Below, piece by piece: positions 28,246-50,265 of a stretch of DNA of 64,000 nucleotides. Source of the stretch: Fibrobacter sp. UWP2 (GTDB lineage Bacteria; Fibrobacterota; Fibrobacteria; Fibrobacterales; Fibrobacteraceae). The notes under the pieces are model-generated. The model was not told the DNA's origin. It did no database searches and was given only the letters and a program-made list of their open reading frames with translations. Each line of letters opens with the position of its first letter. The stretch's first letter is position 1. The position numbers and the translations under genes were made by a program. The DNA lies in the NCBI RefSeq assembly GCF_900141705.1, contig NZ_FQYM01000002.1, positions 1 to 64,000 of the forward strand. The letters are read 5' to 3'.

Positions 28246-28286
28246 TGGATTGACGGCTTTGCCGTCCGTGGCTGCAGCTCACCAAT

Positions 28287-28308
28287 AAAAATATGCTAGC
28301 ATATTTTT
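28287..28308. repeat. Perfect 22-bp AT-rich palindrome
   Basis: The sequence is symmetric about GCTAGC at 28295-28300, with AAAAATAT and ATATTTTT arms. It may be a protein-binding site or a cruciform-type terminator. Confidence 0.5.
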
Positions 28309-28374
28309 GCTGGATTCGCCTTGCCACTATTCTATCGCGCCTTTGCGGACGCTCCAGAATGATTGCCTGCCGTT

Positions 28375-49400: not shown

Positions 49401-49980
49401 GGAAGAAGTCGAAAAGCAGTTTGACGACCTGGATTTGGCACGTGCCTCGCTCGACCGCACCATCACCAAGCTCGACGACATTGCCCGTTCCCGTTACTTG
49501 GAGACCTTTGAACGCATCCAAAAGAACTTCCAGTTTGTGTTCAGCAAGCTGTTCCTGAACGGCGAAACCAAGATGAATCTTGTGGAAAAAGTCGACGAGA
49601 ACGGGAAGCCCGTGGATGTCTTGGATGCTGATATCGAAATCAACGTGCGCCCGACCGGCAAGAAGATGCGTGGCATCAAGGCGCTCAGTGGCGGTGAACA
49701 CGCACTTACCGCGACGGCCTTGCTCTTTGCCATCTACATGGAAAAGCCCTCGCCGTACTGCGTGCTGGACGAAGTCGATGGCCCGCTCGATGACGCCAAC
49801 GTGGGCCGCTTCATGGCGCTGCTCCGCGAATTCAGCAAGCAGACCTTGTTCATCGTGGTGACGCATAACAAGCGTACCATGGCCGAGGCCGACATGCTCT
49901 ACGGCGTGACGCAGGAAATCAAGGGTATTTCCCGCATCGCGAGCGTGCAGCTTGCCGACGCGACCAAATTTGCGATATAA
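46426..49980 (+). CDS. smc: Chromosome segregation protein SMC
   Basis: A 1184-residue condensin ATPase. The N-terminal head has FGFKSFAQRTEINFP and the Walker A loop GPNGCGKSNITDAIRW near residue 33. Long coiled coils flank a hinge at residues about 510-660 (GLLSERIEATPEYASHVEAA onward). The C-terminal head has the signature LSGGEHALTATALLFAIYM and Walker B PYCVLDEVDGPLDDANVGR. The GTG at 46426 is the family start; no Shine-Dalgarno sequence precedes it. The partner scpB is at 15177. A structured repeat begins at the very next base after the stop. Confidence 0.97.
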   Translation: MQITKLKIFGFKSFAQRTEINFPTKGLTAVVGPNGCGKSNITDAIRWVLGEQKAAALRMGKMQDVIFSGTEERAAMSLAEVSIVIDNSDGALASEYSEVIVTRRVHRDGSGEYLINNQECRLRDVHALLFDSGLGSSTYSQMNADMIKAVLSDKADDRRILFEEAAGVSKYRQQRKEAVRQLERVQQDMLRVEDNLRSVRRSVHMFETQASKVDEFKRLSGRLRELDLSVSLDKYEDYKESLDTLDTTNRRMTHEVETAKSKGMELQTKIEEKKLAISEDENAYRDLEREVQTATLALNDLNNGIMRLRDSITALQSANDKAREDIERSQAKVQELEGERARLEEENRVLGDDSEVNEMNALLEREREALQVMRDKVDDLRTQSRELSNARLEAANKVNALGSRFERMDAEADMLRANLEKWNSEMESLRAQKADTESAVADIQSGMDEATRELENLEEQKATREERLEQEKSDLADVQKSLQDLKNEEARLQSRIDVLQSVANEGTDASRWLKENKANLVGGLLSERIEATPEYASHVEAALGDLLDAVVVSSEGAVTEIVNSLDGENVGKALLALVNDAGSRYAGAINRPGIVGCLGQFVTAEPEIAEFVSGILSRYFVVNSLETAIVLAKEFRSEDLCFVAPNAVVRTSGLISSGASASGTLSRKNEIAEATKLLEGVVAEISQKESELDRLQNLVDEDSQILTSVTDDIREKNDSLRAGAAGVQIQKNNLAGIDARLQRLQADADAAQQRIAEAQNTMDGDAELSEAKAAMERAEDSYTRVNDELSEQETMLREKDEDVRELERSAQNKTAKLAQNTERLRNIADQIEFLDNTVRARQGEIENNSASMEKSEGDIREVANKVEEQDRALRELEERRDVARERYEVVSGDLNAWRDELDRIRDDMIEKMKELNEVGRRQEALQSNLDRLNERITNEYSVDLGNPEGVERVEYSQPEADRELRDLRGKIKELGPINLDVMDNYESEKKRLEEVEKQFDDLDLARASLDRTITKLDDIARSRYLETFERIQKNFQFVFSKLFLNGETKMNLVEKVDENGKPVDVLDADIEINVRPTGKKMRGIKALSGGEHALTATALLFAIYMEKPSPYCVLDEVDGPLDDANVGRFMALLREFSKQTLFIVVTHNKRTMAEADMLYGVTQEIKGISRIASVQLADATKFAI

Positions 49981-50071
49981 GACCGCTCGGACTAGAATAT
50001 GGCTGTCAGGTTCAGGGCTGGTCCTCGCTCTCGCATACACGCCTCGTTGATACGAGGCGCTTTATGCTCAC
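49981..50071 (+). repeat. Structured covarying repeat, copy 2
   Basis: Starts directly after the smc stop codon. Stem 1: GGAC/GTCC. Stem 2: GCATA (50033-50037) with TATGC (50063-50067), enclosing CGCCTCGT (50040-50047) and ACGAGGCG (50052-50059). The outer stem differs from GCAAC/GTTGC at two paired positions and still pairs. Confidence 0.88.
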
Positions 50072-50075
50072 GGAA

Positions 50076-50244
50076 GACCGCTCGGACTAGAATGGCTGTC
50101 AGGTTCAGGGCTGGTCCTCGCTCTCGCAACCACGCCTCATTAAATAAACCTAAGCCGAATACAGCAGAAACAAATGTATTTGTTTCTATTGTTGAGGCGC
50201 CAGTTTATGCGATGCAATCGCAATATGAGGCGCTTGTTGCTCAC
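50076..50244 (+). repeat. Structured covarying repeat, copy 3, with loop insertion
   Basis: Tandem with copy 2 (GGAA spacer). The 5' part is nearly identical to copy 2. Stem 2 arms GCAAC (50126-50130) with GTTGC (50236-50240) and CGCCTCAT (50133-50140) with ATGAGGCG (50225-50232) are intact, but the usual 4-nt loop is replaced by 84 nt that includes a further inverted repeat (AGAAACAAAT/ATTTGTTTCT) and a GCGAT/ATCGC hairpin. Confidence 0.8.
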
Positions 50245-50265
50245 GGAATACCGCTAGATTCCATT

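Follow-up and report, generated by a model that had tools for sequence, protein, structure and literature searches.

In the window, that is, the whole stretch of 64,000 nt from Fibrobacter sp. UWP2 analyzed here (genome G000), the TAA stop codon of an SMC-like gene (positions 49978-49980) is followed directly by two tandem units of a palindromic repeat, both on the forward strand. The first unit (49981-50074), in an array that genome G020 shares, comprises hairpins A and B, with the ordinary short loop (CGCCTCGTTGATACGAGGCG). The second unit (50075-50246) is made up of hairpin A, CTCTCGC, hairpin B and a GCTCACGG tail, and its hairpin B combines the outer arms GCAAC (50126-50130) and GTTGC (50236-50240) with a covarying stem formed by the 5' arm CGCCTCAT (50133-50140) and the 3' arm ATGAGGCG (50225-50232). 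Inside this stem, 84 nt (50141-50224; TAAATAAACC...CGCAAT) take the place of the 4-nt loop, TAAT, seen in the orthologous empty hairpin, a net difference of +80 nt. An earlier note on this DNA had recognized both the replacement of the loop and the retention of the two pairs of arms, which can be read directly, but had set the limits of the insertion (50140-50225) off by one at each end. The composite of hairpin B and insert folds better than 200 of 200 shuffles (z -3.1), and model R1 matches the insert with 103.2 bits.

The Fibrobacter hosts of these repeats are rumen bacteria. A sequence pattern for short-loop units detects 27 of them in this genome and has matches in 78 of 80 Fibrobacter genomes, 582 units genus-wide presenting the exact loop TTAATA. 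The hairpin A/B arrays start at stop codons or a few bases from them, in the window (49981-50246) as at many other loci, are missing from most orthologous loci and terminate in truncated copies. The hairpin A at leuB has a 5' arm, GCACTTGCCTAA, that belongs to the coding sequence, with a matching 3' arm, GGCAAGTGC. Two other structured modules, one containing AAAAGCGTGCAAAACGAG..GCCGCGGACGCC and one containing CCACCTAAAGGTGGCCATGT..GCTAAAGCAC, are found inserted between hairpins A and B (L062, L067, L077, L081; L064, L073, L074, L089, L090), and the latter also stands alone after purC (L164 and L176).

Fold and distribution of the insert

The insert has a fold of its own, the helices of which all lie on the forward strand. 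Helix P1 joins ATAAACC (50144-50150) to a partner at 50202-50208, the last pair being mismatched in the window copy, in which ATAAAC (50144-50149) pairs with GTTTAT (50203-50208). It encloses a conserved core hairpin (50154-50198), GCCGA..CAGC-stem-loop-ATTG..GAGGC, that spans the inner inverted repeat AGAAACAAA (50166-50174)/TTTGTTTCT (50179-50187), and is followed by a 3' hairpin, GCGAT GCA ATCGC (50209-50221), with two pairs changed on both sides. This inverted repeat and the 3' hairpin had been noticed earlier, and both are real; the P1 stem had been overlooked. Across 31 distinct composites, the host stem, P1, the core hairpin and the 3' hairpin are paired in 99.0% of cells and contain 13 pairs in which both partners have changed, neither value being equalled in any of 500 shuffles, whereas slid versions of the structure are 37-52% paired. 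The host stem itself shows both-side changes in seven of its eight pairs (31 distinct copies), and the non-Watson-Crick features of CCGA/GAGG and CAGC/ATTG are invariant in 25 diverse copies. The TTGTTGAGGCG-like stretch around TGAGGCG (50189-50199), previously described as a second stem arm, is indeed present, but it forms no both-side-changed pairs with the host 5' arm in the 31 distinct copies and hence belongs to the constant core, ATTG..GAGGC; for the same lack of covariation with the host stem, we rejected the view that the internal TTGAGGCG duplicates a stem arm or acts as a conformational switch. Judging from the modeled fold, the whole element would close on itself through P1 and the 3' hairpin, leaving the host stem able to pair.

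Another copy in this genome (C4:21845-21930; 87% identical, E = 3.5e-24) occupies the same loop position, in a host unit from which hairpin A has been lost and which is embedded in a tRNA-Pro remnant. Degraded tandem copies follow a tRNA-Pro gene region at this locus (L009, G000:C4:21000-22800), and the second insert-bearing hairpin interrupts one of them. The search across Fibrobacter proposed in the earlier note returned matches to the insert in 34 of 80 genomes and located it in the same loop of other hairpins in 31 of them, G024, G035 and G075 being left out of these carriers on account of partial or diverged matches only. The 31 carriers hold about 46 full copies, and all those extracted lie in a hairpin B loop, in one orientation, between TAA and T. 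The stems that host them fall into at least five sequence classes, and include CGCCTCGT, CGACTCGT, CCCCAGTT, CCCCTGTT, GGCCCGT, GCGCTCGGT, GCCCTCGGT and GCTCCCGGT. When applied to one genome per species (84,980 species), a strict DNA pattern matched 20 stretches, all of them in Fibrobacter records, and the notion that the insert might be found nowhere else is thereby refuted. The same pattern had no exact match in viral contigs, on which ground a phage origin was rejected. Each long loop confirmed in the loci studied contains this insert, a figure biased by the choice of loci for the insert; in these insert-selected loci, other cargoes of the hairpin B loop were rejected, the remaining long-loop matches looking like chance palindromes in coding sequence.

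Filled and empty loops at orthologous loci

Six orthologous loci have a filled loop in one species but an empty one in another. At the 3' end of the SMC gene, the joined flanks of the filled locus (G000) and the empty one (G020) are identical at 94 of 94 positions, and G020 presents the same unusual CAT/ATG stem with the loop TAAT. The remaining pairs are found at a GGDEF gene (filled in G007, G055 and G073; empty in G015, G047 and G048), at argJ (filled in G066 and G069; empty in G072), at leuB (filled in G005 and G069; empty in G008) and at fusA, both for stem GCCCTCGGT (filled in G072; empty in G008, G046 and G057) and for stem GCTCCCGGT (filled in G052; empty in G005 and G066). The difference is exactly TAAT versus TAA[..]T, with identical stems and no host bases lost. 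In all six cases the stem of the filled copy agrees with its own empty orthologue and not with other filled copies, which indicates that the insert entered or left the loop in situ. At a further locus (L071), adjacent filled and empty tandem units match at 91 of 94 positions, the insert being almost their sole difference. Small palindromic repeats are usually known as fixed copies and their movement is poorly understood; filled and empty orthologous loops in several stems provide clean before-and-after substrates for the study of loop-directed insertion.

We infer gain, rather than loss, as the direction of change, and for the fusA stem GCCCTCGGT, empty in three genomes and filled in one, gain would be the simpler direction. 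If the commoner insert type were excised by slippage between its AATA repeats, it should leave the scar TTAAATA; this loop is absent genus-wide among the short loops found with the same pattern, so that slippage loss does not in general account for the empty loops, although gene conversion from a neighbor may. As candidate target-site duplications, which could also be microhomology, AATA is repeated in copies of the L050/L055 type, and most copies have AA together with one further A. Identical or near-identical inserts occur in different stems, and on the insert tree the stem class changes 12 times (minimum 5, shuffled mean 14.7); on these sequence comparisons, insert and stem are largely, though not wholly, decoupled. 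The residual correlation between insert subtype and stem class implies that part of the spread consisted in copying of the whole unit.

It seems probable, on this evidence, that the 84 nt constitute a small non-autonomous mobile element, the nested lineage of which has the apical loop TTAATA of a palindromic repeat located after stop codons as its target. Of the two options in the earlier note, a stem that tolerates a cargo and another small element that targets this loop, the second is supported by the membership of the insert in a structured family of its own that also exists outside this hairpin, by its recurrence in many stems and by the filled and empty orthologues. In the mechanism that we envisage, one lineage of a Fibrobacter-wide family would have specialized on the TTAATA loop of hairpin B in tandem A/B units, and would enter when this hairpin is extruded in single-stranded form, as could happen on the lagging strand. 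A hairpin-recognizing enzyme provided in trans would cut the exposed loop, and the cut loop would be joined to the folded element, leaving only a direct repeat of 2-4 nt (AA or AATA). By closing on itself, the element would keep the host stem paired, and the host repeat could thus remain functional or neutral.

A competing account, possible although we regard it as unlikely, is that of a single ancient insertion followed by co-dispersal: hairpin B and its insert would have spread together with the host repeat, the stems changing by compensatory mutation and the empty loops arising by gene conversion from neighboring empties or by precise deletion. It accommodates the fact that nested copies form one subfamily and that subtype partly tracks stem class, GCGAC/GTCGC 3' hairpins, for example, being associated with CCCCWGTT stems. 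It is also congruent with the situation in G050, where near-identical filled B hairpins lie behind differing A hairpins and a tandem duplication is present, and with the empty locus of G047, which could be a recombination of two B hairpins. Nevertheless, this account is at odds with the identity of filled and orthologous empty stems at six loci, including the unusual CGCCTCAT/ATGAGGCG and GCTCCCGGT, with the presence of identical or near-identical inserts in different stems, and with the missing TTAAATA deletion scars among the loops recovered by the same pattern. Much less plausible is that the insert is an RNA module and not mobile DNA, acting as a structured 3'-UTR extension in 3'-end protection, translation or regulation. 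The strong covariation of all its helices, the invariance of CCGA/GAGG and CAGC/ATTG in the 25 diverse copies and its placement right after stop codons would suit such a role, but a transposing hairpin would equally conserve its structure, at conserved genes the insert is present in some related species and absent from others, copies lie elsewhere too (between GCAATGACG repeats, for instance, or in the tRNA-Pro remnant of L009), and there is no Rfam match. That unrelated sequence landed in the loop once, by chance or through an assembly artefact, can be dismissed, since numerous independent genomes and assemblies, named Fibrobacter MAGs among them, contain complete copies.

Known mobile repeats and the wider structured family

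Like the insert, elements derived from IS200/IS605 lack terminal inverted repeats, insert 3' of a short oriented target and carry end hairpins. The Y1 transposase of such systems (Y1_Tnp, PF01797) was not found in this genome, and its presence in 27 of 80 genus genomes is uncorrelated with that of the insert, 10 of the 31 carriers and 17 of the 49 non-carriers having it (Fisher p = 1.0). Neither the insert nor the hairpin-A motif lay close to any of the 10 Y1 genes that we examined in relatives, the single match being a hairpin-B unit of the host repeat beside one such gene; the examined loci resemble ordinary IS200-like elements, the ends of which are unrelated to the insert. Unlike IS200/IS605-derived elements, therefore, the insert shares no ends with a Y1-carrying autonomous copy among these 10 genes, and a Y1 (IS200/IS605/RAYT) transposase was rejected as the mobilizer. 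In a genus that often lacks this usual candidate, the filled and empty loops make it testable which enzyme acts on extruded hairpins.

The insert resembles REP/BIME elements mobilized with TnpA_REP (RAYT) in that hairpins at gene 3' ends form mosaic tandem arrays (PMC8266576), but differs from them in the absence of a Y1 transposase from this genome and of any Y1 association across the genus. Where E. coli REPs conserve an AA-GC stem mismatch (PMC8266576), the Fibrobacter family presents an invariant CAGC/ATTG wobble-mismatch step. The insert, with 84 nt and three helices, exceeds the 20-40 bp of REPs. The GTAG tetranucleotide that marks the hairpin foot in REPs of the GTAG/CGTC class is missing, as is CTAC, from all 31 distinct composite copies, and CGTC/GACG occurs in only four of 31. 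REPs regularly sit inside palindromes, as reported for GTAG-15 of A. variabilis, GTAG-23 of T. roseum and CGTC-1 of H. neapolitanus (PMC3733652), and the insert likewise is a small palindromic repeat at a fixed place within another palindrome; in A. variabilis and H. neapolitanus, however, no empty target palindromes were found (PMC3733652), whereas Fibrobacter has hundreds of empty loops, together with orthologous filled and empty pairs. Like the MITEs NEMIS, ERIC and BOX, the insert is short, folded, intergenic, non-autonomous and present or absent between relatives, with insertion polymorphism at the six orthologous loci. Unlike MITEs, it targets a specific hairpin loop and leaves an ambiguous direct repeat of at most 2-4 nt; it has no terminal inverted repeats, its ends, TAAATAAACC... 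and ...ATCGCAAT, not being complementary. The integron attC core RYYYAAC...GTTRRRY is not matched by the outer arms either, these being GCAAC/GTTGCTC in the window and variable in other units. At or above the gathering scores of Rfam 15, the window matches tRNA only and the element is unmatched in ten copy-bearing loci, on which basis a known Rfam RNA was rejected; a genus-wide structured element family absent from Rfam is thus documented here. None of the papers searched describes these Fibrobacter repeats, and both repeat families and the loop-exact targeting appear to be undescribed, while the nesting of small repeats in palindromes was already known.

A covariance model of the insert matches all 80 genus genomes and, at a stricter threshold, 10 genomes from five other genera of the same family (Fibrobacteraceae). 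Scores are 95-109 bits for nested copies and do not exceed 68 bits for stand-alone relatives, the one exception being L093, a nested copy with 67.6 bits that is truncated or decayed; the nested insert is hence one subfamily of a larger genus-wide family of structured elements. The window itself contains a stand-alone relative that has diverged, at 28250-28333 on the reverse strand (45.3 bits, E = 1.8e-10). Stand-alone copies share the invariant CCGA..CAGC / ATTG..GAGG core, the covarying helices and the 3' hairpin, and their 5' flank, T, is complementary to a downstream segment, T', and often directly repeated. A complementary T/T' run of at least five is found in 28 of 38 distinct flanks, as against 16% with shuffled partners, and in several copies T consists of the gene's last codons and stop codon.

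These flanks raise the rather speculative idea that the wider family inserts by a structure-guided, target-copying mode with the plan T - core - T' - 3' hairpin - T, in which T would be local flanking sequence, often the last codons and stop codon of the host gene, and T' its reverse complement, differing from site to site. Under this reading, and with equal reserve, the apical loop of a different repeat might serve as T in the nested lineage. Hairpin- and stop-codon-directed transposition with target copying would, if true, have no known equivalent; the idea draws on the T/T' flanks, of which our main conclusion is independent.

Among stand-alone relatives, those at six loci (L226, L217, L241, L243, L242 and L245) overlap gene stop codons, the last codons, T, being complementary to T' and repeated past the 3' hairpin. 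In orthologues of a rubrerythrin-like gene T' varies along with T (AATTACT/AGTAAT versus AATTTCT/AGAAA). At L012 (G000:C7:92200-93300), a hairpin A/B unit lies between the stop codon of a gene and a core element, the T' of which still fits the older codon spelling, whereas the last two codons of the gene have since come to differ from it synonymously (AACTAT versus AATTAC). Finally, core-like hairpins GAGGCGAGTGAAGCAGAAACAAN..TTGTTTCTATTTCCGAGC occur in arrays at L094-L097, L099 and L100, several of them adjoining parS-like TGTTTCACGTGAAACA sites.
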